Positions 39,501-53,949 of a stretch of DNA of 64,000 nt are shown piece by piece (the first letter of the stretch is position 1; every line of letters begins with the position of its first letter). Source of the stretch: Bacteroidota bacterium (GTDB lineage Bacteria > Bacteroidota > Bacteroidia > Bacteroidales > Paludibacteraceae); the NCBI GenBank assembly GCA_017860295.1, contig JAFNAS010000002.1, forward strand, positions 186,001-250,000, written 5' to 3'. The notes beneath the pieces are model-generated. The model did no database searches. It was not told where the DNA came from and worked only from the letters and a program-made list of their open reading frames with translations. A program made the position numbers and the translations under genes.

Positions 39501-39573
39501 TCTGCATGATTATTCTGATACAAAAAAAGGATTTGTTGTTTGGAAAGATTTATTAGAAGAACAAATAAACTAA
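36568..39573 (+). CDS. Primase-helicase fusion (AEP primase plus superfamily 2 helicase), TOTE-like
   Basis: 1001 residues. The N-terminal archaeo-eukaryotic-type primase domain shows the DxD motif in WFVAADFDDDNW (about residues 89-100) and the SxH-type motif in RSRSGQGGHIWIFFE (about 121-135). A later NQDFLSKKGLGNLIALPLYK contributes the third acidic position. The helicase has Walker A VIVAPPGSGKTIVGL at about 383-397, the DECHH box (IIVDECHHVPAKTY, about 474), motif III-like GLTATPF, and a C-terminal RecA lobe with YIGRVQRSE. This AEP-plus-helicase layout is that of TOTE-type conflict systems as I recall. It may be a one-gene defence factor. No partner gene is adjacent. Confidence 0.82.
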   Translation: MDIQLFKSLFKGRDDVFAIRWENGKKSGYMPAYSYDPYLYRAHKMRGGTFQNYPDKTYLPLSDKEIEKHLRGEQLIGIYPLLPDNTSWFVAADFDDDNWLEECKTFLKVCRENEVPAYLERSRSGQGGHIWIFFEQVYPAIQSRKIILSLLEKSGVFSVFDKSSSFDRLFPNQDFLSKKGLGNLIALPLYKKTVEQGNSCFLDIDTFQPVQNQFEFLKNINRITTAKLDELYQSTSSSTNFDLNNQITANAKLPATFGNKLTITLNNVVRINRNGLPTSLISFLKEELNFANTEYFIKAKAGKNTFETERYFKFVEETENEVVVPRGFVGKLIRFCHGQNIEYVFKDIRKKLNPVEYLLNAQLREHQQAAIESVAKKDFGVIVAPPGSGKTIVGLKIISDRKQPALIIVHRKQLVEQWIERIETFLGIPKHEIGRIGQGKNKAGKKITIATIQSLSKELINSESELLSNVFGTIIVDECHHVPAKTYRDTIGKLSTYYLYGLTATPFRKYNDGKIIFSHLGEVIVEIKPTEISTYKQAKIIIRNTELDVPFNSKTDQFETLSKILIHDSARNKLVLADVVSELKQGKRVVVITERKEHIDTLTQYLKQSFETVTLCGDDSENSRNFKWKVLKDGNYQVLITTGQYFGEGSDLQNVNSLFLVYPFAFEGKLVQYIGRVQRSEITPTIYDYRDVKIDYLNKLFLKRNTYYRKIEKQTSLFDDPTEEMTTLQDYHKIEIKIKVSIDDLDFRYGSVVFKYSIPEIAKPVEFEIENLQIRPEFEVLKPYFAKVLNTKFISCDIYAEFENTELVSQLATSIDLQKINQEVIEGVKFKFISNSFLGTKSRKDNTLKTIDELLERKGNEPTLYNDGQALLGDLLNLKTFRHSKQLRYLADKHERSILKIRFVLTPFSFVFLLAGENQFHLVLETLDTEEATYLWHIEKDKTQLKSQLKAIDEQLSIIRNKGRQTFLETKPENFSRILHDYSDTKKGFVVWKDLLEEQIN

Positions 39574-39645: not shown

Positions 39646-40902
39646 TTATGTCCGAAAAGCATTAGCCTTTCTTTCAATTTCTGAAGGTGATATTTTATAT
39701 TTTGCTGCAACTTTCCGCCATTGGAAAACCGCTTTAGTAACTTCCTCTTTTATTTCTTCAGCTCGTTTTTCAGAAAGAAGATAATAAGGAGCGGTATTCA
39801 TAACCAAATCAATATCCAAAGAGTTATCCGTTTCATCAATATTCAGTTTAAGAGCTGTTCCGGTTTCGTTCGGATTAATGTCAAATGCCGGAGACAGATT
39901 CCAACCGGCTTCGGTATATAGAAAGCCATGATTGCGCAAATGGTCATCCGTATTGGAAACGCGAACAGAAAACAGAACCCGTCGAAAAAGTTCTTCCAGA
40001 TTGCCGGTAACATTCGCACATTCCGACTTTATAAAGCCGACTAAATCCAAATAACTGACACCACTTTCCGCATCATCTCCGTCTGTTCGCTGTAATAATG
40101 TCATAGCCGAAGCATAATGAATTCGTTTATTATCCGCTGTCCGGTCAAAACGTTGTGATAAGTAGGTGTGATAGGAAGACGCCAGCTTTTTCACAAAGGC
40201 ATTTGGAACCGTAATTTTAGCCTGAATAGCCAATTCATGTACAACCATCTCCCATAAACCTGTATCCGAATCATCCTTTTTACTTGGAAATTTCGCAATC
40301 CATTGATTTCCGCGTGTATCAACGACATCTGCTTTTGGGCGAGCTCCTCCCAGCGATGAGCCTGGAGCAATCAGTTGATTCATCCATTTAAGGGAAGCTT
40401 CATCTAATTCATCGGCATTTTTTTCATATTGTGCCACTGCATATTCAAGATCTCTTAACGAAGTCCAGGGTGGAGCAGCTAATCGTTGGTCATTACTCAT
40501 AAATTCACCCTGTTCGGTTTCTTTGAAACGCAATCCACCCATACGGTGGCTATCATGTACTCCCAATAGGAAATCAATTTCGAATAAAGTGCGGGGTTCG
40601 GTTTTCTCAATTTTTGACAAGAGGACTTCCCTGCGCTTCATCAATAGCTGCCCCCATCGGTCAGGTGATGAATCTTTGAAAATACCGAAATTATTATTTG
40701 GAGTGGCATAATGTAGTCCGGAGAAAAGAGGCAGCTCAGGATCAATAGAGATACCGGTTTTTATCCACTCGTTGGCATATTCAAAAGAATACACAGCTTT
40801 ACCCCGAAGAGAAGTAAAATACAACTTTCCTATCAATTCAGGCGTACCGAGCATATACCAATCCGCATACACCAATATTTCTTTTTCTTTATTCTGCTTC
40901 AT
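39646..40902 (-). CDS. hipA: HipA-type serine/threonine kinase toxin
   Basis: 418 residues. N-terminal HipA phrases: LYFTSLRGKAVYSFEYANEW and SIDPELPLFSGLHY. Kinase part: the ATP-binding lysine region GNQWIAKFPSKKDD, catalytic loop RVSNTDDHLRNHGF with the Asp/Asn pair, and the DFG-equivalent SPAFDINPNE. SLGGARPKADV is the glycine-rich phosphorylated loop. It is the toxin of a type II system that phosphorylates a translation factor or tRNA synthetase to induce dormancy. The gene order is antitoxin then toxin with a six-base gap. It sits just inside the right end of the element, where it would stabilise the island. Confidence 0.92.
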   Translation of the reverse strand: MKQNKEKEILVYADWYMLGTPELIGKLYFTSLRGKAVYSFEYANEWIKTGISIDPELPLFSGLHYATPNNNFGIFKDSSPDRWGQLLMKRREVLLSKIEKTEPRTLFEIDFLLGVHDSHRMGGLRFKETEQGEFMSNDQRLAAPPWTSLRDLEYAVAQYEKNADELDEASLKWMNQLIAPGSSLGGARPKADVVDTRGNQWIAKFPSKKDDSDTGLWEMVVHELAIQAKITVPNAFVKKLASSYHTYLSQRFDRTADNKRIHYASAMTLLQRTDGDDAESGVSYLDLVGFIKSECANVTGNLEELFRRVLFSVRVSNTDDHLRNHGFLYTEAGWNLSPAFDINPNETGTALKLNIDETDNSLDIDLVMNTAPYYLLSEKRAEEIKEEVTKAVFQWRKVAAKYKISPSEIERKANAFRT

Positions 40903-40908
40903 AACAAA

Positions 40909-41286
40909 TTATTCAAATTCCGGTTTTTCAGAATCACCTTTGTCTATAACATGATCAATAGCCGATAGTGTCTTTTTCTTTTTCGGGGCTCTCTTTTTCA
41001 CGATCAATCCGGCATCCTGAATTTGTCTGCCTACAGGATCTTTATCTGCTATCAATAGTAAATCATCTTCAAGGCGTAAAACAGATAACACCTGCAAATA
41101 ACTTCCCAACGAAACGGATGGAGAGCCATCCTCAATATTGTTTAACGTAGATGTGGCAATACCGGCACGTTCAGCCATGGAGTGCATTGATAATTTCCGG
41201 CGCAAGCGGGCTAACTTAATATTCTCTCCCAGCGTGGCAAGCACATTCTTCTGCTTCTGAGTGTAATTTGTTCCTTTTGATTTCAT
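40909..41286 (-). CDS. hipB: HipB-type antitoxin (XRE HTH)
   Basis: 125 residues. HTH region: LGENIKLARLRRKLSMHSMAERAGIATSTLNNIEDGSPSVSLGSYLQVLSVL (parts). The C-terminal tail is Lys-rich (KKRAPKKKKTLSAIDHVIDKGDSEKPEFE in parts), typical of the flexible tail that is degraded by protease. It is located upstream of hipA in the same operon. It binds the operator and represses the operon with HipA as corepressor. A TATCAC/GTGATA palindrome is present 39 bases upstream. Confidence 0.9.
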   Translation of the reverse strand: MKSKGTNYTQKQKNVLATLGENIKLARLRRKLSMHSMAERAGIATSTLNNIEDGSPSVSLGSYLQVLSVLRLEDDLLLIADKDPVGRQIQDAGLIVKKRAPKKKKTLSAIDHVIDKGDSEKPEFE

Positions 41287-41616: not shown

Positions 41617-41944
41617 CTAACGAAAATATCTAGCAGTAAAAAAAGTAGAAAGCCCTACAAATCATTGAATTTGTAGGGCTTTCCTATTATTGTACATTTT
41701 TCCGTAAAGGACAAAATAGATTCAATATCTATCAATCTGTAGGTGCTGAATGCAATGGACTTGAAAATTAGAATGACAACTCGACACTCACAGCTTAAAT
41801 CCACTCAAATGATTCTTATACTACAGCTCGAATAAGTTACCATCAAGATCGTAGAAATCACCCTATCGTATATTGCCAAGTTGCAATATGATAGGTGCAG
41901 ATCTAAAAAATACTGTCTCTGGTCTATCTTGAGACAGCCTCAAT
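41617..41944. other. Right flank of the element with two hairpins and a degraded copy of left-end sequence
   Basis: Contains the perfect 15-bp hairpin GAAAGCCCTACAAAT/ATTTGTAGGGCTTTC (41648-41683), probably the original or an ancestral tRNA terminator. A segment at 41723-41768 is related to the left-end sequence at 15343-15388. A second hairpin is at 41859-41896. The operon terminator for the metalloproteases follows at 41905-41937. No gene was seen. Confidence 0.6.
41905..41937 (-). terminator. Terminator of the SusCD-metalloprotease operon
   Basis: On the minus strand, stem CTGTCTC/GAGACAG (41913-41919 and 41931-41937 on plus) followed by TA and a run of six T. It begins eight bases past the stop of the last metalloprotease gene. 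Confidence 0.8.
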
Positions 41945-44365
41945 TTATATTATGGACAATGAATTAAGCTGAATCAGTATATCGTGATAATGATAAATTG
42001 TTTCCTTGTCATTGATTGTGGGTAAAATCTTATTGATTTTACTTTTCAAGGATAACAAATGTGCCCTTAAAACTCCTGTTAACGGACTGTTGGATGGATT
42101 GTTTTCGACAACAGTTGACAAAGAGCTAACATATTTCTGTTGTAAAGACATATGATAACCGCTAACAGACTTGCTTGTTAAAAGTTCGCTCCATATTCCG
42201 GCGTCCAAATCGGTCAGGAAATTTCCTATGGTATAAGTTTTTTCGCCGTACAATAACGTTGCGTTTTGCAGGTTTAGTAGCTTTTGAGTATTTAACAAAT
42301 TACCCAACACATCGTCTGCAATCAGTTTTGTCAGAGGCTCTGATGTGGAACTCCAGACCTGATCCAATACACTATCCGGTTGAATCCAAACCGGTTCTGT
42401 GGCAAACACTTCTTTGTTTAAGTAGGCCATTGCCTCCTGTTGTTTCTTCTTAGGAATCAGATAGAACACTTTTGTAGTATCACCTACTGTTGTGTTATTG
42501 TAATATCCTTTGCCGATTGTATTGATAACATGTTGATGATACATAAAAAGTTGAGATAGCAAGGCCGAGTAACTTCGCCTTAATCCATTGCCGGCATGTA
42601 AACCGAACAGGTCGGCAGGTATTTTTGTCCATTCGGGCAAATGCTCAAGTATCCTTTTTAGATTTTCAATGCCGTAGGAGTTTGCCACCATTACATTGTC
42701 GCTCAAATCTTCATTTTGGCATCGTGAGTCGGAAATTCCCAGAAAGCCTTGTTCTCCGTAATACAACCTTGGATTTGCTTTTAAGCTATCTGTAACCAAC
42801 TTAAATAACATTTTTGCTTCATCACGGGTATCTTTGATATCGGGATAGGCTTTATAGCCCCATTCAATGGCCCACTTGTCATAGTCGCCAATTCTGGGGA
42901 AAATTCCTTTTTCAGAAATACTATCCTCCGGTTGTGCCACATAATTGAAACGTGCATAATCCATAATCGACGGTGTATGACCATGTTCTTCCACCCATTT
43001 CTTGTCACGCAGTTTTTCCACGGGAACAACAGATGAAGCCCCGAAATTGTGCTTTAAACCCAATGTGTGCCCGATCTCGTGCGACGACACAAACCGGATC
43101 AGCTCTCCCATCAATTCCGTGCTGAATTCCTGATGATGTGCTCTTTCATCAATTGCACCGGCTTGTGTGAGATACCAATCATGCAAAAGAGTCATTATAT
43201 TGTGATACCAAGTTACATGCGAACCTATAATTTCACCGCTTCGGAGATCCATGATGGTAGGTCCTGCCGCATTTGCCATTAACGAGGGCTTATATACAAT
43301 GACACTATACCGGGCATCGTTGATATTCCAGGTTGAGTCGTCCTTCGGCACTTCAATAGCCCTTATCGCATTTTTAAAACCAGCCTTTTCAAAAGCCGCC
43401 TGCCAATCGTTCACACCAGCTATCAAATAAGGCACCCAAACTTTAGGCGTCGTGGGATCGATATAGAAAGTGATCGGTTTGATGGGTTCTACGAGTTCCC
43501 CACGTTTGTATTTTTCAATATCCTCGGGTTTGGGTTCCAATCTCCAACGCATAATTTTAAGCACCATTCCGGCACGTTGCGGATCGATATCGAAATCAAA
43601 ATTAAAAGGAGTGAAATAGCCAACCCGCTGATCGTTATAGCGTTCCCTCATAGGTGTGGAAGGCAGCAGCAAAAACGAAGTGTTGAGTATTAAACTCATC
43701 GTACTGTCATTTTTTCCCGTGCTATAGGTTTTTAGCCCCTGAATTTCAGTGTTTATCGGGAAGGAATAAATTTTATCGACGTAAGATTTATCTGCCTGAA
43801 ACGCTTTTGCGGTACTATACTGACCGGAAATAAGGTCGGAATTGCCAGAAATAAAATCGGTAACATCGATAATAGATGAATTTCCTTCAGAGCCATAAGC
43901 TTTTATATCGAAAGACATTAATACACCCTGAATATTATTTTTGTCAAATGCCCGTTTCAGGCCGTTTTCAGTAGAGTCGGTTGATCGCTCATCCTGAACG
44001 AGAGTTTGTATGTCAATGCGTTGCCCATGTCCTTTGTTGAAAGTGATCATATGCGACCCTAGTTCTTCTCCCGAATACCCTTCTTTTGCTTTATCGATGG
44101 CAGCAGAAGATTGCAATAACCGATTCACAATCAATACCGGACGGTTCAATATGGAATCTTTGATTTCAAAGTAATATCGGTTATTCAGGGAATATACATT
44201 GATCAATCCTTTATTAACCTTCGCCTCAGGAGTTATCAGCTTGCCAAAAGGCAGAGGCGTTGTTTCCGTATTAGGCAATGGCAGTGACGGATTTGTTTGC
44301 GCAAACAAGGCAAAAGGCAGCAGCAATAGAATTAAAATGCGTAAGAAAATTCTTTTATGTAACAT
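41945..44365 (-). CDS. Secreted zinc metalloprotease, catalytically intact
   Basis: 806 residues with signal peptide (MLHKRIFLRILILLLLPFALFAQ). Metzincin motif SSHEIGHTLGLKHNFGA at about residues 424-440 gives HExxHxxGxxH, and SIMDYARF is the Met-turn. The upstream half carries DUF5117/DUF5118-like phrases (YYFEIKDSILNRPVLIVNRLLQ; VRYNDQRVGYFTP-type stretches as RYNDQRVGYFTPFNF). It belongs to the large Bacteroidetes metalloprotease family often encoded after SusC/SusD pairs. It is the last gene of the operon and is 22 bases from its inactive paralogue. It probably digests external proteins or host proteins at the cell surface. Confidence 0.88.
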   Translation of the reverse strand: MLHKRIFLRILILLLLPFALFAQTNPSLPLPNTETTPLPFGKLITPEAKVNKGLINVYSLNNRYYFEIKDSILNRPVLIVNRLLQSSAAIDKAKEGYSGEELGSHMITFNKGHGQRIDIQTLVQDERSTDSTENGLKRAFDKNNIQGVLMSFDIKAYGSEGNSSIIDVTDFISGNSDLISGQYSTAKAFQADKSYVDKIYSFPINTEIQGLKTYSTGKNDSTMSLILNTSFLLLPSTPMRERYNDQRVGYFTPFNFDFDIDPQRAGMVLKIMRWRLEPKPEDIEKYKRGELVEPIKPITFYIDPTTPKVWVPYLIAGVNDWQAAFEKAGFKNAIRAIEVPKDDSTWNINDARYSVIVYKPSLMANAAGPTIMDLRSGEIIGSHVTWYHNIMTLLHDWYLTQAGAIDERAHHQEFSTELMGELIRFVSSHEIGHTLGLKHNFGASSVVPVEKLRDKKWVEEHGHTPSIMDYARFNYVAQPEDSISEKGIFPRIGDYDKWAIEWGYKAYPDIKDTRDEAKMLFKLVTDSLKANPRLYYGEQGFLGISDSRCQNEDLSDNVMVANSYGIENLKRILEHLPEWTKIPADLFGLHAGNGLRRSYSALLSQLFMYHQHVINTIGKGYYNNTTVGDTTKVFYLIPKKKQQEAMAYLNKEVFATEPVWIQPDSVLDQVWSSTSEPLTKLIADDVLGNLLNTQKLLNLQNATLLYGEKTYTIGNFLTDLDAGIWSELLTSKSVSGYHMSLQQKYVSSLSTVVENNPSNSPLTGVLRAHLLSLKSKINKILPTINDKETIYHYHDILIQLNSLSII

Positions 44366-44387: not shown

Positions 44388-46961
44388 TTAATATTGAACT
44401 GACTCGTTTTTCCAGAAGCTGGAGGTTTCCTGAATATTTCCCGACCCTTGCGGGGCTTTCAAAACAGGCAGAGCTGGAGTTGGCCTTTTGGGATCAGTCA
44501 GTTTATTTATTTGTGCCAATATATCCCGATAATGGTTTTTAGAATTTTGATCCGTAATTAATTTCAACGAATTGGCAACTTTTTGTTTTAAATCAATCAA
44601 ATGACCCCGTGAAACGGCTATTGTTGCGGTGTTGGTGATATCCCGTGGGGTGTCAATAATGGTGGCAATATTAGCGATATACATTTTTTGCAATATCATG
44701 TGATAGCTGCTAACCTTTTGTGATGTTCCTAATTCCGGCCAGATGCAAGCGTCAAGGTCAGTCAGGTACGAAACGAGTGTGTAAGTTTTGCTTTCGCCAA
44801 ATCGTTCCGCTGTTGCATTTATATTTTTCAGGCGTTTCAAATCAAGCAATGAACTAAGCATATTTGTTCCGGCACTGTACATATAATTGTTATAAGGAAA
44901 ATCTACCATATGGTTTATAATATCATCGGAGGCAATCCACCGGGGAGGAGCGTTAAATATCTCGGATTTCAAAAATGCCATTGACTTTTTTTGTTGATCT
45001 AATGATACGGGAGCGTACACCTTTTCATTCGATTCCGTACCATGAGGATGGTAGTAATACGTACCAAAAATATTGGCGACATTATTTAAACAGGCATCAA
45101 ATTGGGCGATAAGAAAATTGAAAGTCGCACCAAACTGACCTCCCTTGGCATCATATAACTTATCCGGTTGCGCCATCCATTCAGGTAAGTGCAGGGCGAT
45201 ATACTTCAGGTTTTTAATACCAAGAGTGCCGGATTCAATTGCATTGTCTCCCAGATTGTCTGCCAGATTTCGGGGATCAGAAACGAGCTCGTTTTTTTTA
45301 GGAGCTGCCCCATAATACAATCGGGAATTTACACGTACACTGTCGGCTATCATTTTTCGCAGATAATCGCGAATTTCTATTGGATTATCCATCTCGGGAA
45401 AATATTTATAACCAAATGAGATAGCCCATTTATCGTATTCGCCAACGCGCGCCATGATGCCATCCCGGGTAACCTTATCTTCGGGTTGAGCCACATAGTT
45501 AAACAGCGTACCTTGCATAATAGACGGACTGATGCCGTGCTTTGCAACCCAGTCTTTATCCCTTAACTTTGCAACAGGAACAACCGATGAGGCTCCGGGA
45601 TTATCGAGCAAGCCCAATGAATTACCCACATTTGCCGAAAGCTCCACGCGAAGCAGCTCACCCATCAACCCGGTACTATATTCTACATTTCTGGCTCTTT
45701 CATCAATAGCGCCTGCTTGTACTATATACGTGTCATGCAGCAGAGACAGTGTGTTATGGTTTATTTGGATGTTGGCCTGCAATATCTCACCGCTTCGGGG
45801 ATCGGTTACAAGATTGTGAAATATTCCGCTTACCATGGACGGAGCATAAACAATCGTATTAAATCGCCCGTCTTTTGTATTCCAGCAAGTGTCATCCTTT
45901 GCTATTTCTTTGGCATAAATTGCATTTTTGAAGCCGGCTTGTTCAAATGCCGGTTGCCAGTCGTTTACAGCCTTAATAATATAAGGTACCCATTTTTTAG
46001 GCGTAGTAGGGTCAATATAAAAAACAATGGGCTTAGCAGGCTCTACGAATTCTCCCATTGCATAACGTTCCATGTCTTCCGCTTTGGGTTCCAGGCGCCA
46101 CCGGGTAATCCGTTCAACTTTCTTGGCTCTTTGGCTATCCTGGTCGAAATCAGTCTGCAGTTGTGAATTATACCCTATTCGTTCATCGGAATATCTCACT
46201 TGCATGGGAATTTTTGGCAACAATACAAAAGACGTATTTATTTTGGTAGTGAGAGCTGTCTGATTGATGATATATGTTTTTATCCCGGAAACTTCCACAT
46301 TCGTAGGGAAGGCTTGCAGAGTATCAATATAAGACCGATCCGGCTGGAATGCCATCGCCTTGAACAGTTCTTTCACATTGCCAGATATGATGGACAAATC
46401 GCTGTTTATAAAATCGGTGACATCTATCACCACCGAATTTTTGCCATAAGCTTTAATATCAAATGCAAATAAAACCGGTTGCAAATCATTCATTTTTAGC
46501 GAATGGTATAATCCATTGTCAGAACTGTCATTGGCTATTTCTTCGTATATCAATTGTTTAATAAACAACTTATCGTTTGGCCCTTTAGAAAAGCAGATTT
46601 GCGTATTTCCCAACACTTTACCTGCAAAGCCTTCGGGATCACGTTGAAATAAAGCCGGTCCTTGTTCAATACGACTGATGACCTGAAAATCACGTTCTAA
46701 AATTGAATCGGGGATTTCAAAGTAATATCGGTCCTTTACTTTGTTGACGACAAAAACCCCTCGAGAGGATTTGGCGTCAGCTGTAATAACTTTATCGTAG
46801 GGCTGCGGTTTATTTAGAGCCGGCAAACTATCGGCTTTCATCGTTATTTTACTACTTTCTTTATTTTTAGACGTTTTCATATTTAACGAAAAAATATTGG
46901 TAACTCCGAGAGTCAATAACAGACTCATCAGAATTATCGGGCGACATTTGAAAATGTTCAT
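44388..46961 (-). CDS. Metalloprotease paralogue with lost zinc ligands
   Basis: About 857 residues from 46961 (MNIFKCRPIILMSLLLTLGVTNIFS), which opens a signal peptide; the frame from 47069 adds 36 residues and overlaps susD. It is colinear with the downstream metalloprotease, sharing VVPVAKLRDKDWVAKHG, FNYVAQPED, GEYDKWAISFGYK and the N-terminal region. But the zinc site HEIGHTLGLKH is replaced by SANVGNSLGLLDN, so none of the three histidines nor the catalytic glutamate remains, and the Met-turn SIMDY is SIMQG. It is an uninterrupted, full-length frame, so it is a maintained pseudoenzyme rather than a decayed gene. It may bind peptide without cutting or regulate its partner. Confidence 0.85.
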   Translation of the reverse strand: MNIFKCRPIILMSLLLTLGVTNIFSLNMKTSKNKESSKITMKADSLPALNKPQPYDKVITADAKSSRGVFVVNKVKDRYYFEIPDSILERDFQVISRIEQGPALFQRDPEGFAGKVLGNTQICFSKGPNDKLFIKQLIYEEIANDSSDNGLYHSLKMNDLQPVLFAFDIKAYGKNSVVIDVTDFINSDLSIISGNVKELFKAMAFQPDRSYIDTLQAFPTNVEVSGIKTYIINQTALTTKINTSFVLLPKIPMQVRYSDERIGYNSQLQTDFDQDSQRAKKVERITRWRLEPKAEDMERYAMGEFVEPAKPIVFYIDPTTPKKWVPYIIKAVNDWQPAFEQAGFKNAIYAKEIAKDDTCWNTKDGRFNTIVYAPSMVSGIFHNLVTDPRSGEILQANIQINHNTLSLLHDTYIVQAGAIDERARNVEYSTGLMGELLRVELSANVGNSLGLLDNPGASSVVPVAKLRDKDWVAKHGISPSIMQGTLFNYVAQPEDKVTRDGIMARVGEYDKWAISFGYKYFPEMDNPIEIRDYLRKMIADSVRVNSRLYYGAAPKKNELVSDPRNLADNLGDNAIESGTLGIKNLKYIALHLPEWMAQPDKLYDAKGGQFGATFNFLIAQFDACLNNVANIFGTYYYHPHGTESNEKVYAPVSLDQQKKSMAFLKSEIFNAPPRWIASDDIINHMVDFPYNNYMYSAGTNMLSSLLDLKRLKNINATAERFGESKTYTLVSYLTDLDACIWPELGTSQKVSSYHMILQKMYIANIATIIDTPRDITNTATIAVSRGHLIDLKQKVANSLKLITDQNSKNHYRDILAQINKLTDPKRPTPALPVLKAPQGSGNIQETSSFWKNESVQY

Positions 46962-47055: not shown

Positions 47056-48480
47056 TCAATAACCGTCATTCTGTGTTAGTTGAGGTGCGTTCTGTATTTC
47101 AGTTAGAGGAATAGGATATAATACTGCTGTTGATTTCCATGTGGCAGGTTTAAGTGCACCTAAAACAGCATCTGCACGGTTCGTTCGTTTTAAGTCAAAC
47201 CACCTATTGCCATATTCCAGAAAAAGTTCTACCCGTCGTTCTTGTTCTATACTGGTAAGGCATTGCGCTTGAGTCATATTTGCAGCATCAAGAGAAGCAA
47301 GACCTGCTCTTGTCCGTATCACATTTATATCTGCGACCGCACCTGCAGTTCCTGTGACATTGCTTTGCCGTGCTCTGGCTTCCGCACGTATCAAATACTG
47401 TTCGGATAATCTTAACACAATTGAGTACTCTAGAGGATCGGAACTTCCGTCGTAATCCCTATATTTAGCTCCATAATAATAGGTAGTACCACTATAATCA
47501 AAAGAACCTAGCCATGCGGTTTTTCGGACATCACCAATTTCAAAGGCATTTGCAAGAGAAGAAGTCAAAATGTAGTATAAACTCTGATATTGACTGCCAT
47601 AGTAATAATAATAATCTTCGTTAGTCAGCCAATGTCCTGTAGTCGTTTGAGGGTTGATAGCAAAAATACTTTCCTTGCTATCCTTTAAGAATACATTGCC
47701 TATGTCGGCTGTGGAGAGTAAACTATACAAACTAGTAGTATTAATTACTTCTGTTGCTTTTTCTTCTGCATTTACATAATCGTCCATATATAAGTATACT
47801 CTTGCCAGCAACGCGCTAGCAGCACGCTTATTAGGTTTATCCCTTTTACTACTATAGTTGCTATAATTAGCTGGAAGTTTGGTCTCCGCATCTTTTAAAT
47901 CAGAGACAATTTGTGCATAGACATCAGCAGTAGCAGCCCTAGCCAAAGCATTATTAGTTTTCACATCAGGTGTTACAGTAAGTGGCACGGGACCAAACAT
48001 ATTGACCAGATAAAAGAAATTCAATGCCCGAACAAATTTTGCTTGTCCAACAAATTGTGTTTTTATCGAATCACTCATCCCTGTCGAATTAGTCACGTTT
48101 TCTATAATATTATTAGCCTGATATATTGTTTTATAAAAACCTGTCCATAAATTGGAAGCACCGTAATCGGAAGCAGTTAGTGTATTCGTTCCAAAATCGG
48201 TAAATGGATAATCTGGATTACTTCCATCCGTTTCATCGGCAGAAAGACTACAAGCATATCCAATATTCATAAATGCAGAAGCCGTAACCATACTGCTATA
48301 CATGCCTACCAAAGCTGCATTTGCATTTGCGTCGGAACTAAATACTTGTGAAGCCAATACTTCTGTTGTAGGAGGATCTACTTCCAACAGGTTATCACAC
48401 CCAATAAGAAGCAGTGCCATAATCAGTTGCAAAAAGCCTACATATATTTTTTTGTATGAAATGAAATTATACTTTCTCAT
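47056..48480 (-). CDS. SusD/RagB-type outer-membrane lipoprotein
   Basis: 474 residues. Lipoprotein signal: FLQLIMALLLIGCDNLLEVDPP with the lipobox cysteine. SusD phrases: ANNIIENV, QAKFVRALNFFYLVNMFGPVPL, RASALLARVYLYMDDYVNAEEKATEVI (parts) and the C-terminal ERRVELFLEYGNRWFDLKR. It forms the lid over the SusC barrel and captures substrate at the cell surface. It is 18 bases after the susC gene. Because metalloproteases follow, the substrate may be peptide or glycoprotein rather than glycan; this is an inference. Confidence 0.92.
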   Translation of the reverse strand: MRKYNFISYKKIYVGFLQLIMALLLIGCDNLLEVDPPTTEVLASQVFSSDANANAALVGMYSSMVTASAFMNIGYACSLSADETDGSNPDYPFTDFGTNTLTASDYGASNLWTGFYKTIYQANNIIENVTNSTGMSDSIKTQFVGQAKFVRALNFFYLVNMFGPVPLTVTPDVKTNNALARAATADVYAQIVSDLKDAETKLPANYSNYSSKRDKPNKRAASALLARVYLYMDDYVNAEEKATEVINTTSLYSLLSTADIGNVFLKDSKESIFAINPQTTTGHWLTNEDYYYYYGSQYQSLYYILTSSLANAFEIGDVRKTAWLGSFDYSGTTYYYGAKYRDYDGSSDPLEYSIVLRLSEQYLIRAEARARQSNVTGTAGAVADINVIRTRAGLASLDAANMTQAQCLTSIEQERRVELFLEYGNRWFDLKRTNRADAVLGALKPATWKSTAVLYPIPLTEIQNAPQLTQNDGY

Positions 48481-48498
48481 AATAGTACTAATTATTAA

Positions 48499-51400
48499 TT
48501 ATAATGAAAATTGTATTCCACCAACAATGGCCGTCAGCGGAGGAACAGCACTTGTGCCTGTTTCCGGATCTATACCTGCATATGTTTTTCCTGAAAGCGT
48601 AAATTTAAATAAATTTTGCCCCTGTATATAAAATCGCATATTGGAAAGTTTTATGCGTTTGGACAGATTTTCCGGCAAATTATATGAAAATGATACATTC
48701 GTCAATCGACCGTATGACAGTTTCTGTAACATTGCATCAGATTGCTGAAATAATTTGAATGCTGTAGAATAAGAGGATGTGGTAAACAGTTTTTGAACAC
48801 CAAGAGCACGCATTGCCTGAACTACAGCTGATGGAAAATTCGACAATGTTCCCGGAGCAGAACTAAGAGTTGATAGTATACCAAGATCCTTGGCTCCCAA
48901 AGTGAAACGAGCAGAAATATCCAGTTGAAAGTTTTTATATTTAAAAGTATTCGAAAGTCCTCCGTATAAATCAGGATAAGACTTTCCTTCGTATACTAAA
49001 TCACCTACACCTGTATTAGCGCCTATCGTTGTAGTTATCTTACCATCTTTATCAACATCTTGATAAGTTGGCATTCCATCCTTATCCGTTCCTGTATAGT
49101 GCAACAAATAGAGAGAAGTTGTGGGTCTTCCAACAACATAAGTAGATGCATAAGACGACGACGCTAAGCCCGGAAATGAGAGAAGTTTATTTTGCGGAAG
49201 AGAGGCATTGGCCGAAGTGCTCCATGTGAAATTTTTAGTCCGAATATTAGTACTGGTTAATGTCACTTCCAATCCTGTGTTTTGTACCAACGCATTAAGG
49301 TTAGCTGTATAGCTAGAAAAACCTGTTTGTGTGGACAATGGATAATCTAATAATTGATTACTCGTTCTATTGCTGAAATAGGCAAAATTGAATAACAACC
49401 GATCTTTGAAAAAGCCAAGATCCGTCGCTATCTCAAACTTTCGCGTAGTTGCCCATTTATAATTAGGATTAGCTACTCTTGCAGGCGATAAACCGGAAGC
49501 CCCCGAATAATAGCTGGAACTGGTACCTGAATAAGAAGAGAGATAAGCGTAATTTTGAACATTATCATTTCCCACCACCCCATAACTACTCCTAATTTTT
49601 CCAAAACTAAACCATTCCGGTTTCCGGGTAAGAAACGGTTCACTGGTAAATATCCAAGCGAGCCCCACTGATCCAAAATTTGCATAAAGATTATTGGGCC
49701 CAAATTTGGACGAACCATCACGTCTGAAATTACCGTTGATAATATATCGTTCTTTATAGATATAATTTACGTTTCCAAAAAAAGAAACATATTTATATGC
49801 ACTATACCCATTATGAATAATGTAACTGGAGGCCATAGACAAATCTTTCATATATAAGTCAGATGAAAAGCCTGAAGCTATGATGAAAAATGGCTGTTCA
49901 TTGACCGTTTCCTGATAAGTTGCACCCAACAAAGCAGTTAAATTACCACCTCCAAGTAACGCGGAATAATTCAACTGTGGTTCAATCACCAAATTTCTAG
50001 CGTTAGATTCGGTATAAGTGGCCGTACGCGTAGAAACTAGAGACGTTGACTCTGGATTAGCCGAAGTACTTGGACTTAAATCACTTTGATTAGATTGCGT
50101 TCTATTATATCCTGCATTAACAGACAATTTAAGTTTGCGAGTTAAGGCATAACTTAAATTAATGCTAGTATTTAGCGTATTCATATTATTCTGATAACTT
50201 GAATTCAGAGCTGCTAATGGATTGGAAATGTTGGGTATACTTTTAGACCACCAATATAAAGATCCATCTGTATTACGTAGAGGAAAATTAGGTGGTAAAG
50301 AATAAGCATACTGATAAAATCCGGCACTTGCCAAATTACTGATATTAGAACCCATTATGATCGATAGCGTTGCTTTAAACTTTTCGTCGGGGCTGGTATA
50401 ACCAGAACTAAAATGAAGACCATAACTGCTCGAAGAACGATTGTCATCAAAAACAGAAGTATTACGAGAATAGTTCCCAGAAAGCATAAACGTTGATCCA
50501 TGACCACCTCCTGATACAGATACACCACCAGAGTAAGATTTGGATGGACTGCCAATTAATATTTTCTTGAAGTTTTGACCTTCTGTTTGACTCCAAAGCG
50601 TCAAATCTGGTGCATTGGTTGTTGTCGGTGTTTTATTATCGTTCGCAAAAGCTTCTTTTCTTAATGCCAGATAGTCGGTAAGATTAAGTGCCTGCATGCT
50701 AGTGTTCATAATACTCACACCTGAACTTAAATTGATGGAGACAACAGGCTTTCCAACGTTTCCTTTCTTTGTTTTAATTAAGATAACACCATTTGCTCCA
50801 CGCGATCCATAAAGGGCTGTTGCATTAGCATCTTTCAATATCTCAATACTTTCAATGTCACTTGGACTAATAGTTGCCAAAGGGCTACCATTACCACTAC
50901 CATTCGGTCCCTGCAAGTAAAAGTAAGATCCGGAAGTACTTTTGCTTGATGCTAGTTGATTAATGGCTGCCCCCGGAAAGGCAATACCATCAACAACATA
51001 AAGAGGGACATTTTTCAGAACATTAGTCGTTGAATTGCTAGGATCAAGAGAATTTTGCCCACGAATCTCTACATCAATATCCGCCCCATGCAAACCACTT
51101 GACTGATTAATAATCAAACCTGCGACTTTGCCTTGTAAAGCCTGCATCACGTTTTCAACAGGCTGTTTGCTAATGTCTTTACTTGTAATTTTTACTGAAG
51201 ATCCAGTGGCATAGCGATTGCTGGTAGTCAACCCATAAGCAAGCACTTCCACTTCATCAAGTTTATTTGTTTTCTGTGACAGTACAACAGTACCAATATT
51301 TGATCTGCCAACAACCGGAACCTCCAATTTTTCGTATCCGATAAAAGATATTACAACGACATCAGAAGCCGTTACACCCTGTAGATTAAAGGTTCCATCA

Positions 51401-51903
51401 GATTTTACTAAAACACCGTTGGTCGATCCTTTTACAAGAACTGTAGCTCCCGGAAGCGCTGCGCCATCATCTTCTGCACGTACAACACCCCGTAGTTCAT
51501 AAGTTCTTGTGAAAGAAGCTCCAAGAATCTTTGTGGAATTTTCCGAATCTTTGCTTATCACTATGGTTTTATTAACAATTGTAAACAGAAGACCGTGACT
51601 ATGAAGACACGCTGCTAAAGCTTGTCCTATGCTCACATTTTTTATTTGGACATCAATGTAATACTTTTTCAAATCAAGGTCTCCGGTAACAAAGACAAAG
51701 CCGGATTGGCTCTTAATTGATTTAAGTACTGTCGTAAGTTGTTCATGCTTGAAATTTAGACTTATAGTATTGCCTGATTGAGCTTTTACCGACTGAAGGG
51801 TTAAAGACAACAATAGAGTCAATAAAGTCAACTTAAAAAAAGGATGGAAGATTTTCCGTCTTTTTTTTATTCCTACTATTGATTGAGTTATATGATTATT
51901 CAT
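48499..51903 (-). CDS. SusC/RagA-type TonB-dependent transporter with STN domain
   Basis: 1134 residues. Signal peptide region FFKLTLLTLLLSLTLQSVKAQ (the C-terminal part of the leader). An STN signalling domain follows (LNFKHEQLTTVLKSIKSQSGFVF), then a carboxypeptidase-regulatory-like domain (LRGVVRAEDDGAALPGATVLVKG), the plug (PVENVMQALQGKVAGL; ALYGSRGANGVILI) and the beta-barrel ending GGIQFSL. The STN domain contacts the FecR anti-sigma factor encoded just upstream, so substrate binding can trigger transcription of the operon. It imports the ligand delivered by SusD, powered by TonB. Confidence 0.94.
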   Translation of the reverse strand: MNNHITQSIVGIKKRRKIFHPFFKLTLLTLLLSLTLQSVKAQSGNTISLNFKHEQLTTVLKSIKSQSGFVFVTGDLDLKKYYIDVQIKNVSIGQALAACLHSHGLLFTIVNKTIVISKDSENSTKILGASFTRTYELRGVVRAEDDGAALPGATVLVKGSTNGVLVKSDGTFNLQGVTASDVVVISFIGYEKLEVPVVGRSNIGTVVLSQKTNKLDEVEVLAYGLTTSNRYATGSSVKITSKDISKQPVENVMQALQGKVAGLIINQSSGLHGADIDVEIRGQNSLDPSNSTTNVLKNVPLYVVDGIAFPGAAINQLASSKSTSGSYFYLQGPNGSGNGSPLATISPSDIESIEILKDANATALYGSRGANGVILIKTKKGNVGKPVVSINLSSGVSIMNTSMQALNLTDYLALRKEAFANDNKTPTTTNAPDLTLWSQTEGQNFKKILIGSPSKSYSGGVSVSGGGHGSTFMLSGNYSRNTSVFDDNRSSSSYGLHFSSGYTSPDEKFKATLSIIMGSNISNLASAGFYQYAYSLPPNFPLRNTDGSLYWWSKSIPNISNPLAALNSSYQNNMNTLNTSINLSYALTRKLKLSVNAGYNRTQSNQSDLSPSTSANPESTSLVSTRTATYTESNARNLVIEPQLNYSALLGGGNLTALLGATYQETVNEQPFFIIASGFSSDLYMKDLSMASSYIIHNGYSAYKYVSFFGNVNYIYKERYIINGNFRRDGSSKFGPNNLYANFGSVGLAWIFTSEPFLTRKPEWFSFGKIRSSYGVVGNDNVQNYAYLSSYSGTSSSYYSGASGLSPARVANPNYKWATTRKFEIATDLGFFKDRLLFNFAYFSNRTSNQLLDYPLSTQTGFSSYTANLNALVQNTGLEVTLTSTNIRTKNFTWSTSANASLPQNKLLSFPGLASSSYASTYVVGRPTTSLYLLHYTGTDKDGMPTYQDVDKDGKITTTIGANTGVGDLVYEGKSYPDLYGGLSNTFKYKNFQLDISARFTLGAKDLGILSTLSSAPGTLSNFPSAVVQAMRALGVQKLFTTSSYSTAFKLFQQSDAMLQKLSYGRLTNVSFSYNLPENLSKRIKLSNMRFYIQGQNLFKFTLSGKTYAGIDPETGTSAVPPLTAIVGGIQFSL

Positions 51904-52080: not shown

Positions 52081-53226
52081 TTATTTGTTTTTTATAATAA
52101 GCCTATTTCCATCTAATTTGAAATTAACTCCTAAATTCTTTAAGATAATGAGTATCTGTGAACCATTCATATTTCTATAAATTTCGCCATTAATCATTTT
52201 GGTTGGAATAGTTCCTTCATATTCTATTTCGAGATTATACCAACGTGCAATTTGTCTCAATACTACAGACAACTGAACATCTTCGAAATGGAACAAATCA
52301 TTTCTCCATGCAAGTTCCGATTCAAAATTGGCTGGTTTCACCAAAATGGTACGACTCTCATCAGAGGTCAATGCTTTTTGACCTGGAATCAGCACTACCT
52401 CGTTCTCATTGTTTTTTACTTTCACACTACCTTCCACCAGAGTTACGATAGCAACTGGCTCATCATTATAAGCACTTACATTGAATGAAGTTCCTATATC
52501 TTCAATAATCTGATTCTTAACTTGCACTCTGAATGGCGACTTACTGTTATGAACAACTTCAAAATAAGCTTCACCAGTAAGTTTCACGAGTCGTTCTGAA
52601 CTATTAAATACTTCGGGGTATTGAAGTGTGGAACCGGCATTCATAAACACCTTGGTACCATCTGATAAGACGATAGTGAATTTATTTCCGTGTGGAGTGG
52701 TAAGTGTGTTGTAAACAAATCGGTCACTGATTGGACGATGGATATTTTTATACCGCAACAATCCATCAGAATAGTTGAAAATTGCAGCAAGGTTACTGTT
52801 ATTCATATCCACAGAAGCATGGGTTGCAAATTTTATTTCCTTGCCATCCGCCAAAGTCAAAATAGCTCCATTTGTCCCCGGAGCAATAACCACCCGTTCG
52901 ATAGCCATTGAATCGGAACTAATTATCTGTGACGATTTATATAAAAAGAGGGAGGTAAACAAAATGGCAACTATAATAGAAGCCGCAGCAACATAACGAT
53001 AGAAGTTAGGAGTTCGTCTACGAAACCGATGGTGAAAAATGCTTTTGCATATAACGTCGAACATCTCATTCTTTACCAACGTCTCTTCATCAGGAGACTC
53101 AGCCTCCCATATCTTCGTTTTCTGTTGCTGACTGCGATACCAAGCATCAAGTAATTCACGTTCTTGGGCAGTAGCAGTGCCATCAAGATACTTTTGCACT
53201 AAATAGTCTATTTCCTCAGGGTTCAT
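52081..53226 (-). CDS. FecR-type anti-sigma factor
   Basis: 381 residues. N-terminal cytoplasmic part with DYLVQKYLDGTATAQERELLDAWYR, one transmembrane helix near YVAAASIIVAILFTSLFLY, then the periplasmic FecR domain (TPHGNKFTIVLSDGTKVFMNAGSTLQYP) and a C-terminal domain (FEDVQLSVVLRQIARWYNLEIEY). It holds the ECF sigma factor inactive until signalled by the STN domain of the SusC protein. The order sigma, FecR, SusC on the same strand is canonical; 114 bases separate it from the sigma gene. Confidence 0.93.
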   Translation of the reverse strand: MNPEEIDYLVQKYLDGTATAQERELLDAWYRSQQQKTKIWEAESPDEETLVKNEMFDVICKSIFHHRFRRRTPNFYRYVAAASIIVAILFTSLFLYKSSQIISSDSMAIERVVIAPGTNGAILTLADGKEIKFATHASVDMNNSNLAAIFNYSDGLLRYKNIHRPISDRFVYNTLTTPHGNKFTIVLSDGTKVFMNAGSTLQYPEVFNSSERLVKLTGEAYFEVVHNSKSPFRVQVKNQIIEDIGTSFNVSAYNDEPVAIVTLVEGSVKVKNNENEVVLIPGQKALTSDESRTILVKPANFESELAWRNDLFHFEDVQLSVVLRQIARWYNLEIEYEGTIPTKMINGEIYRNMNGSQILIILKNLGVNFKLDGNRLIIKNK

Positions 53227-53340: not shown

Positions 53341-53949
53341 CTATTGGCGAGAAAAAGTATCATGCAAATACATTGCATACAGTATGGTCAGGAGAAGCAG
53401 ATCGATCCTGAATTTAGCCCGAATGATTTTAAGGCCTTTAGTCAAATGCCCTTCTACTGTTTTTTCAGATATGTTCATCTTTTCCGCAATCTCAGAAATT
53501 TTCATATCATCCAACCGGCTATAACTAATTACCAATCTGCATTTTTCGGGAAGAGATTCTAAAAGATTTGAGAAATAGTCAGCACAAAAAAGAGTTTCTA
53601 TCTGCTCGTCCAATATGGCTTCATCCTGAGGGTCTAATTTTTCTTCTCGAATTATTCGTCTTCTTCGTTCTTTTTCTATATGCACAAAGAACGAGAACTT
53701 TATGGAAGTAGCCAGATAATTGCTAAAATTATTTATTTCAAGAGTATTACGACGATTCCAGAAACTAATAAACACATCCTGAACAATATCCTTGGCCTGA
53801 GATTTATCATGAGTGAGATTATAAGCAATACCTAAAGATTTATCCCAATACCGATCATACAGAACTGAAAATGATGACTCACAATCATTTAATCTAACGC
53901 ACAGAAGCAACTCATCATCAGTTTTTGTATATGGATAATCTCTGCTCAT
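53341..53949 (-). CDS. ECF RNA polymerase sigma factor (Bacteroides expansion type)
   Basis: 202 residues. Region 2 includes FSVLYDRYWDKSLGIAYNLTHDKSQAKDIVQDVFISFW, and region 4 includes LPEKCRLVISYSRLDDMKISEIAEKMNISEKTVEGHLTKGLKII (parts). It is the sigma partner of the FecR gene downstream and directs transcription of the SusCD operon. The C-terminal extension after region 4 ends in a hydrophobic stretch (LLLLTILYAMYLH), unusual but seen in some members. A -7-like box for its promoter is at 53979-53986. Confidence 0.93.
   Translation of the reverse strand: MSRDYPYTKTDDELLLCVRLNDCESSFSVLYDRYWDKSLGIAYNLTHDKSQAKDIVQDVFISFWNRRNTLEINNFSNYLATSIKFSFFVHIEKERRRRIIREEKLDPQDEAILDEQIETLFCADYFSNLLESLPEKCRLVISYSRLDDMKISEIAEKMNISEKTVEGHLTKGLKIIRAKFRIDLLLLTILYAMYLHDTFSRQ

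Follow-up and report, generated by a model that had tools for sequence, protein, structure and literature searches.

Enzymes that pair a working polypeptide with a catalytically dead homologue have been described in several settings. For the peptidase family M16B, two reports describe the mitochondrial processing peptidase (MPP), whose alpha and beta chains are homologous active and ligand-less subunits, the bacterial two-gene enzymes SPH2681/SPH2682, TTHA1264/TTHA1265 and AlbE/AlbF, which form active heterodimers, and a homodimeric member, BHP (PMC12731061; PMC11266112). In trypanosomes, active AdoMetDC is joined by prozyme, a dead paralogue that activates the live enzyme, and this arrangement is proposed to have arisen by duplication within a pre-existing homodimer-based mechanism (PMC5201418). 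Other systems couple proteolysis to uptake. FusA is the TonB-dependent receptor of FusC-type import. The peptidase FusC is periplasmic and tied to the import of ferredoxin across the outer membrane (PMC12731061).

The locus analysed here lies in a stretch of 64,000 nucleotides (the window) and comprises a tandem gene pair encoding the inactive paralogue PSE (44388..46961, minus strand) and its active partner ACT (41945..44365, minus strand), both delineated from open reading frames, Pfam matches, alignment and structure models. The pair resembles the two-gene M16B peptidases in that one active and one inactive homologue are encoded by adjacent genes, as in the window and in 27 pairs overall, although the M16B heterodimer is known whereas that of PSE and ACT is putative. 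The two groups differ in motif (HXXEH in M16, HExxHxxGxxH plus a Met-turn here) and in fold, and ACT carries an HExxH motif (HEIGH) in its PF16313 domain and is therefore not an M16 member. Unlike in M16B, the dead partner here had at least five origins in a single family. AdoMetDC/prozyme is eukaryotic and no peptidase, whereas PSE and ACT are encoded by bacterial tandem genes with repeated origins; FusC is a single-chain M16 peptidase for ferredoxin, whereas the window combines SusCD with a Met-zincin pair. By profile, PSE and ACT belong to the Pfam Met-zincins (PF16313, with PF17148 and PF17162), which are uncharacterised peptidases, PSE without the zinc site, and in contrast to metzincins such as karilysin, MMP-9, MMP-3 and the serralysins they possess additional DUF5118/DUF5117 and helical domains. 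A literature search found no functional paper on this PF16313/PF17148/PF17162 peptidase family.

The inactive paralogue and its active partner

PSE was initially annotated as a full-length metalloprotease paralogue devoid of zinc ligands, and closer analysis bears this out. All three zinc-binding histidines and the catalytic glutamate are substituted: HEIGHTLGLKH of ACT corresponds to ANVGNSLGLLD in PSE (residues 443-453, codons 45603..45635 on the minus strand, located by alignment) and SIMDY to SIMQG, with the aligned segments reading SHEIGHTLGLKHN and PSIMDYARFNY in ACT and SANVGNSLGLLDN and PSIMQGTLFNY in PSE. In ACT numbering, the changes are H429A, E430N, H433N, H439D, D469Q, Y470G, A471T and R472L. 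PSE thus lacks the HExxHxxGxxH/D zinc signature that, with a Met-turn, characterises active metzincins and that ACT has in full; PSE retains the methionine of the SIM motif and qualifies as a pseudoenzyme, an enzyme homologue without catalytic residues, which we predict to be inactive. The flanks of the changed segments are gap-free and each ligand is altered by its own codon, which rules out a sequencing or frameshift artefact.

Both proteins carry all three Pfam domains (PF17162, PF17148, PF16313), the PF16313 scores amounting to 247.6 bits for PSE, with DUF5117 and DUF5118 upstream, and 347.7 bits for ACT, against a cut-off of 24.2; no NCBIfam model matches either. They share 351 of 786 aligned positions (45%), with gaps at 16 of 786, and together comprise 1663 aa. 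The frame of PSE is open throughout and encodes 857 aa counted from the ATG at 46961, where a signal-peptide-like stretch begins; the longest ORF covering it starts at 47069 (893 aa). The signal peptide is followed by DUF5118, DUF5117, the zincin-like domain without zinc ligands, a C-terminal helical domain and a C-terminal tail (residues 837-857) of low model confidence, an architecture shared by ACT. The ACT gene starts 22 nt past the PSE stop codon and is followed directly by a terminator-like inverted repeat (CTGTCTC/GAGACAG) and TATTTTTT (41913..41937, minus strand), identified by eye and absent from the consensus-scan listing. A simple pattern finds no lipobox in PSE or ACT. Both are therefore probably periplasmic, and we reject their identity as surface lipoproteins; elsewhere, among rows with a rule-pickable start, a lipobox-like string occurs in only one inactive (L279) and one active (L294) protein.

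AlphaFold single-chain models of PSE and ACT are confident (pLDDT 87.7 and 89.9). The catalytic segment of ACT resembles karilysin (Z 9.0, rmsd 3.2 over 144 residues, 17% identity) and MMP-9 (Z 8.8), and a zincin-like fold is retained in the PSE model, which matches stromelysin-1 at rank 10 (Z 8.2, rmsd 5.1 over 150 residues); the higher ranks are taken by largely helical chains of no relation, aligned to regions elsewhere in the model. These Z values are middling, so the similarity informs the fold class only; moreover, it is visible only in the VIA re-alignment and applies to the families represented there. A Foldseek comparison of the PSE model with the PDB gave no matches at E 0.001 or better, and the ACT sequence returned one chance-level match among solved structures (E 0.45).

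Tandem pairing and repeated inactivation in the family

Relatives of PSE were matched in about half of the sampled genomes of the phylum (199/395), which, judged by the SusC and SusD genes, is probably Bacteroidota. A census of ORFs of at least 150 aa, with copies collapsed, comprised 259 distinct family members, 225 of them active, 27 inactive and 7 without a readable site. Whether inactive forms lie beside active ones had been raised as a check at the outset, and the answer is uniform: all 27 inactive members adjoin an active copy, and inactive members are absent (0/188) from the single copies, defined by the lack, in the stretch examined, of another family gene on the same strand up to 400 nt away (Fisher p 5.7e-19, in a sample in which inactive/active pairs are over-represented because several searches were queried with inactive proteins). 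The dead and live genes are separated by -4 to +29 nt in all 22 pairs measured, out of 27 in total, with gene starts picked by a signal-peptide rule. An earlier search with PSE as query gave 165 aligned rows, 152 of them with HEHH, and 116 loci of at least 7 kb; each of the five tandem pairs on one strand in this set combined an active with an inactive copy, three of them (L039, L040, L041) having been fetched because two adjacent matches were listed, and no single copy was inactive. Tandem pairs with two active copies also exist (L296, L297), and a third, broken tandem locus (L283) has HEHH in both copies. The census leaves out at least five listed tandem pairs (G1372:C7, G1369:C29, G1296:C1, G1311:C60 and G1275:C12, plus others), some of which are probably active/active.

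A quick 90-row tree calculated without the ligand columns, covering 24 of the 27 inactive and 38 of the 188 single active rows, contains five separate inactivations, one of them in the window, each forced by a starred branch; the remaining inactive rows are L254 (97% identical to L253), L259 (broken) and L270 (cut). A tree uniting all inactive copies in one clade is rejected (p-AU 3.5e-42). Two careful subtrees force three inactivations (in the f106 clade, in PSE, grouped with ACT at 100/100, and in the L088 pair, supported at 99/98; bootstrap not fully settled) and two inactivations (f113 and f87), respectively, and a single origin is found in 0% of 200 bootstrap trees in each. In the first of these subtrees, starred support joins PSE and the dead copy of the L088 locus each to its own live partner and not to one another. 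The 90-row tree, the AU test and the careful subtrees thus reject a single ancient pseudoenzyme lineage. Two of the five lineages, those of the window and L088, consist of one inactive sequence each. In f87, intermediates are preserved: two genomes of genus g206 (L296, L297) have both copies active, including the orthologue of the gene that is dead elsewhere, whereas four genomes of its sister genus, g116, have one dead copy. Judged from these trees, the pairing of a working with a dead copy is one that arose at least five separate times and was then kept. The dead copy is therefore probably functional, and its likeliest role is that of a subunit partnering the working copy.

A putative hetero-oligomeric peptidase in a SusCD operon

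The gene pair closes an operon with the order ECF sigma-FecR-SusC-SusD-dead-live, all on the minus strand. The SusCD pair noted initially beside the protease genes is real, consisting of adjacent genes, as in SusCD uptake operons, for a SusD-like outer-membrane protein (47056..48480; matches to SusD-like_3 and SusD_RagB) and a TonB-dependent transporter of the SusC/RagA type that carries an STN domain at its N-terminus (48499..51903; profile matches). Upstream of SusC follow genes for a FecR-type anti-sigma factor (52081..53226) and an ECF sigma factor (53341..53949), which, by their position, are probable regulators of the operon.

We favour, with reasonable though far from complete confidence, a model in which PSE and ACT together form a hetero-oligomeric zinc peptidase of the periplasm, with PSE as the subunit that takes no part in catalysis. 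This arrangement would have evolved repeatedly, on at least five occasions across the family: the gene of a homo-oligomeric peptidase was duplicated in tandem, and one copy was then released from catalysis. Within the resulting periplasmic assembly, ACT would cut, and PSE would contribute to structure or stability, form a portion of the substrate chamber or exert allosteric control. The operon would yield the pair together with the SusCD importer, probably under the control of the ECF sigma/anti-sigma factors, and this joint encoding suggests that the complex probably processes peptides or proteins imported by SusCD. The contact between PSE and ACT, their periplasmic location, the homo-oligomeric ancestor, the peptide substrate and co-transcription are elements that we infer. 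The trees of dead and live copies mirror each other closely (r 0.99, 0.96 and 0.98), a correlation that does not by itself establish contact because neighbouring genes share species history.

Alternatively, PSE could act alone by binding peptides or proteins, for their capture or for presentation to or reception from SusCD, and adjoin ACT only via their common uptake operon. This proposal, which we consider unlikely, would fit the zincin-like fold of the PSE model and the finding that 4/5 fetched tandem loci plus the window have SusC or SusD no more than 3.5 kb away, as against 23/107 single loci (Fisher p 0.0035 with the window, 0.012 without it, using profiles made from the window's own SusC and SusD that may have missed distant homologues). 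However, no SusC or SusD was found in the 16 kb of the L040 pair, nor was either recognised among the upstream ORFs, so that we reject SusCD as an obligate partner of dead/live pairs. Every inactive member read also has an active neighbour. Furthermore, the dead copies have lost residues beyond the zinc site, including F251, A366, W397 and Y470 in 5/5 lineages, N365 and R472 in 4/5, and the conserved NAxGP stretch, which disappeared together with the ligands; a plain presenter that binds but does not cut is thus the weaker reading. For the same reasons, namely the L040 pair and these losses, the original proposal that PSE presents or selects peptides together with SusCD is not supported as stated.

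Still less probable is a role of PSE as a regulator or decoy that, rather than forming a stable subunit, titrates away either an inhibitor or some autoinhibitory element of ACT, or signals to the anti-sigma factor. The FecR and ECF sigma genes in the operon and the STN domain on SusC would accommodate such a role, as would the activation of AdoMetDC by its dead paralogue (PMC5201418), but the sequence indicates no inhibitor.

Constraint and residue loss in the inactive copies

In 24 inactive rows, 25 columns are retained in at least 90% of the sequences, and PSE keeps 73/89 family-conserved columns outside the active site. Together with the fold retained in the model, the columns shared by the inactive rows could be taken to mean that the former cleft of PSE acquired a different activity, catalytic or ligand-binding, a notion to which we give very little credence. 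Near relatives differ in the residues at the ligand positions: the sequences from four congeneric species, 67-91% identical to the first of them, carry QESH, QEKP, QEKN and QRKP, as expected of release from constraint and not of a new shared site.

The initial view that the intact frame sets the loss apart from decay has held up. PSE has no stops over 857 codons at 45% identity to its sister copy, whereas random neutral point mutation of PSE (100 runs per identity level) produced on average 9.5 in-frame stops (minimum 2) at 80% amino-acid identity and 17.1 (minimum 5) at 62%. Orthologue comparisons within f87, f106 and f113, based on a GY94 likelihood script, rejected omega = 1 for the inactive copies in 10/10 cases, with omega ranging from 0.05 to 0.23 in the eight comparisons with finite dS and reaching 0.049, 0.232 and 0.123 in the three with dS < 2; these values are rough because most of the remaining dS estimates exceed 1.7 and some are infinite (inactive L041/L294 and L294/L295, active L278/L279). 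The inactive copies in these three other lineages are under purifying selection; for PSE itself, the indications are indirect and come from its conserved columns, its stop-free frame and the distribution of its divergence along the protein. No close orthologue of PSE was found (0/7 in the same genus), a contig scan with PSE gave 20 pattern matches of which none was confirmed as a relative, and its best match in another genome, G008, is itself active and 45% identical.

The dN of the inactive copies exceeds that of their partners in 10/10 comparisons (1.1-2.0 times), and the excess divergence is concentrated in the catalytic segment (1.4-2.9 times, 12/12 comparisons). It is smaller in the helical part (1.06-2.0 times, 9/9), which is relaxed as well in f113 (up to 2.0 times), and the N-terminal and DUF5117 parts of dead copies are no more diverged than those of live ones (3/3, all f87). 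The active comparators in these tests are often partial (~490-500 aa), as their loci carry a 1.5 kb flank, so that the dead and live columns are not identical. In the window, PSE likewise exceeds ACT in its distance to 10 relatives present as single copies, and most of the difference falls in the catalytic segment (0.49 vs 0.33). A functionless, decaying duplicate is the least probable explanation of all: the elevated dN in other lineages and an inactive relative interrupted by a stop (L259) would agree with it, but the stop-free frame, the retained family-conserved columns, omega values well below 1 in other lineages and five parallel cases speak against it.

Extending the subunit model to the family, we see about an even chance that DUF5118/DUF5117 Met-zincins act in the periplasm as homo-oligomeric peptidases, from which hetero-oligomers with one dead subunit repeatedly arose by tandem duplication. 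The repeated shedding of F251, A366, W397, Y470, N365 and R472 would then mark these residues as catalytic or substrate-binding, and the set common to the dead copies (Y301, W321, F325, G329, P374, G377-E378-I379, D496 and Y504) would mark the fold or an interface.

The retention of dead enzyme copies is usually argued from single cases, whereas one peptidase family here shows the step at least five times and supplies intermediates, orthologues close enough to test for selection, and a compact system of two genes that lends itself to biochemistry. The shed residues are candidate catalytic residues of the family, and the pairing of dead and live copies points to a putative peptidase complex coupled to SusCD import. 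If the model is correct, the family would represent a natural experiment, replicated at least five times, in the transition from a homo-oligomer to a hetero-oligomer with a dead subunit.

An inactive Met-zincin paralog in a SusCD operon

The minus-strand gene at 44388-46961, termed PSE, matches the family profile as a full-length DUF5118/DUF5117/Met-zincin protein. In pairwise alignment it is 45% identical to its active downstream neighbor ACT (41945-44365, minus strand) across 786 positions, 2% of which are gaps. Where ACT has the motifs HEIGHTLGLKH and SIMDY, PSE has ANVGNSLGLLD (codons at 45603-45635, minus strand) and SIMQG, and it lacks the catalytic glutamate and all three zinc histidines. 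The initial annotation, which described a full-length protein with lost zinc ligands and SIMQG in place of SIMDY, was exact in this respect. The PSE start codon at 46961 (ATG) opens a hydrophobic, signal-like stretch, and a longer open reading frame extends from 47069. No PF16313 match other than PSE and ACT was found in the source genome, and none of seven genomes from the same genus contained a match to PSE.

The minus-strand gene order is ECF sigma factor, FecR anti-sigma factor, SusC (with an STN domain), SusD, PSE and ACT, with 22 nt separating the PSE stop from the ACT start. ACT is followed by a terminator-like inverted repeat, spotted by eye and absent from the list produced by the scan. 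Third-position G+C content is 0.40-0.41 in PSE and ACT, as against 0.27-0.28 in SusC and SusD. Directly downstream of the peptidase operon, a HipA_C kinase gene and an adjoining HTH gene form a HipBA-like toxin-antitoxin pair (39646-41286, minus strand), and the plus-strand primase-helicase gene at 36568-39573 (domains AEP-TOTE, ResIII/DEAD and Helicase_C) resembles the core of a TOTE conflict (defense-type) system.

Distribution and origins of inactive copies

Used as a query, PSE had matches in 68 genomes out of 393 from the order and in 199 out of 395 from the phylum. Among 116 loci of at least 7 kb, five (L039, L040, L041, L056 and L088) contained inactive members, each adjoining an active copy in the same orientation; family-level searches with four inactive proteins from these loci added further members, for an overall tally of 259 distinct family ORFs, of which 225 are active, 27 inactive and 7 unreadable. 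All 27 inactive copies, PSE included, stand in tandem with an active copy, and none of 188 single copies (no same-strand family neighbor within 400 nt) is inactive. What stands is that inactive copies were seen only beside an active one. Tandem pairs with both sites readable comprised 27 active/inactive and two active/active cases (L296 and L297), a ratio limited to the readable among the tandem pairs listed, in which active/inactive cases are over-represented because the later searches favor inactive proteins; a third, broken locus (L283) has an intact zinc site (HEHH) on both sides.

Several other arrangements were observed. Six genomes of one f106 genus (G1408-G1413, g548) carry between 11 and 19 family matches apiece, with many of them arranged in tandem twos or threes, and represent a local expansion of the family, of which only loci of the L253-L258 and L260 kind were read. 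One inactive copy (L259:1462-3966, G1414) is interrupted by an in-frame TAG, reflecting either decay or an assembly error, and two active copies adjoin on opposite strands at L212:3635-8693 (G1098), the sole such case flagged in the locus survey. For a more distant branch, present in many genomes of the class, matches are weak and split into two pieces around query position 403-408, as though an insert lay at this point; the one member of this branch examined, L219, is HEHH.

With start codons picked by a signal-peptide rule, inactive and active genes were spaced by -4 to +29 nt in each of the 22 pairs measured out of 27 (+22 in the window). Pairwise distances among inactive copies correlate with those among their partners (r of 0.99, 0.96 and 0.98 in families f106, f113 and f87), which shows co-inheritance but is in part a product of species history. 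SusC or SusD lies within 3.5 kb in four of five fetched tandem loci and in the window, as against 23 of 107 single loci; neither turned up within the 16 kb of L040. At L041 and L056, DUF4843-like and PKD-like genes, two of the four matches falling under the Pfam cut-off, lie between SusD and the pair.

A 90-row tree built without the ligand columns requires five active/inactive changes, each of them forced by starred branches: one in the window pair, one in the L088 pair, and one each in groups of f106 (8 rows), f113 (10 rows) and genus g116 of f87 (4 rows). Constraining all inactive rows together cost 534 log-likelihood units on a quick tree, and a single origin was rejected (p-AU 3.5e-42; 0% of 200 bootstrap trees in each careful subtree). 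The first careful subtree, covering one half of the tree and with a bootstrap that had not fully settled, gave three origins (PSE and ACT united at 100/100, the L088 pair at 99/98), and the second, with bootstrap, gave two in the other half. Among the compared sequences, PSE is therefore a sister duplicate of ACT. In f87, two genomes of the sister genus g206 (L296 and L297) still have the duplicate in active form, and in four genomes of g116 it is dead, so that zinc-site loss came after duplication there. The inactive gene comes first in the window, L088 and f87, and the active one in f106 and f113, in line with separate histories. The third-ligand histidine is proline in 17 of the 27 inactive copies, spread over f106, f113, f87 and L088, a parallel change that perhaps arose merely since one base suffices.

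Constraint on inactive copies

Because no close ortholog of PSE was found, dN/dS was taken from f87, f106 and f113 rather than PSE. An omega of 1 was rejected in all ten inactive ortholog comparisons (2 delta lnL 34 to 677). Inactive omega was 0.05-0.23 in the eight comparisons with finite dS and active-partner omega 0.02-0.14 in nine of ten, many dS values being near saturation; the three inactive comparisons with dS below 2 gave 0.049, 0.232 and 0.123. Inactive copies had a 1.1-2.0-fold higher dN than their partners in ten of ten comparisons. The replaced ligands drift, reading QESH, QEKP, QEKN and QRKP across four species of one genus.

Divergence of dead relative to live copies is raised by a factor of 1.4-2.9 in the catalytic segment (12/12 comparisons) and of 1.06-2.0 in the helical part (9/9, peaking in f113). 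The N-terminal and DUF5117 regions show no such excess (3/3, all f87). The window follows this tendency, with PSE/ACT divergences to ten single-copy relatives of 0.57/0.64 (N-terminal), 0.55/0.61 (DUF5117), 0.49/0.33 (catalytic) and 0.72/0.68 (helical). Outside the zinc site, PSE retains 73 of 89 family-conserved columns, compared to 86 in ACT and 49-76% in other inactive rows. Dead copies in the window (44388-44460) and at L088 (8960-9010) bear a short extra C-terminal tail past the last conserved helix, which is of low confidence in the model of the window protein.

At a cut-off of 93% of active rows, 72 columns count as conserved. Of these, F251, A366, W397, H429, H433 and Y470 (ACT numbering) are gone in all five inactive lineages, two of which are single sequences, and N365, H439, R472, P490 and E552 in four. 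Both N365 and A366 fall within an NAxGP stretch ahead of the zinc helix that, judging from the metzincin fold, is perhaps the substrate-lining strand. Twenty-five columns are retained in at least 90% of inactive rows, including Y301, W321, F325, G329, P374, G377, E378, I379, D496 and Y504. AlphaFold gave confident models of PSE (pLDDT 87.7, pTM 0.86) and ACT (pLDDT 89.9, pTM 0.89). The modeled catalytic segments, with middling Z values, support a metzincin-like fold for both proteins (ACT, 9.0 to karilysin and 8.8 to MMP-9; PSE, 8.2 to stromelysin-1 at rank 10); a plain Foldseek search with the PSE model gave nothing significant.

A putative two-subunit peptidase

With moderate confidence, we favor the idea that the pair is a hetero-oligomeric peptidase. 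The gene for a homo-oligomer would have been duplicated in tandem and one copy inactivated, with both retained side by side, thereby turning the homo-oligomer into a hetero-oligomer in which ACT cuts and PSE acts as a non-catalytic partner, in the periplasm behind a SusCD importer. The repeated duplication, inactivation of one copy and retention of both is the pattern expected for such a transition; in this reading, we infer the PSE-ACT contact, the cellular location and the substrate. PSE could instead bind peptides independently, but this is unlikely, as a dead copy working alone hardly explains the repeated tandem pattern. A role as regulator or decoy appears less probable still, and a new activity of PSE improbable. 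That PSE is a decay product seems the most doubtful alternative, and a simulation of neutral drift led us to expect several stops in PSE on average.

The closest functional analogs of a hetero-oligomeric PSE-ACT peptidase are M16B peptidases, together with AdoMetDC/prozyme. M16B includes heterodimers that pair an active with a ligand-less subunit as well as bacterial two-gene versions (PMC12731061; PMC11266112); the DUF5118/DUF5117/Met-zincin family is not M16. In AdoMetDC/prozyme, a dead paralog activates the live enzyme, and the duplication is proposed to have taken place within a homodimer-based mechanism (PMC5201418). Literature searches on DUF5117/DUF4953, PF16313/PF17148 Met-zincin or SusC/SusD-linked zinc-dependent metalloproteases yielded no paper recognized, partly by title, as being about these proteins, and the sections consulted of a pseudo-metallopeptidase review do not mention them. 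The active/dead peptidase pairing is of a known sort, with unusually many independent origins.
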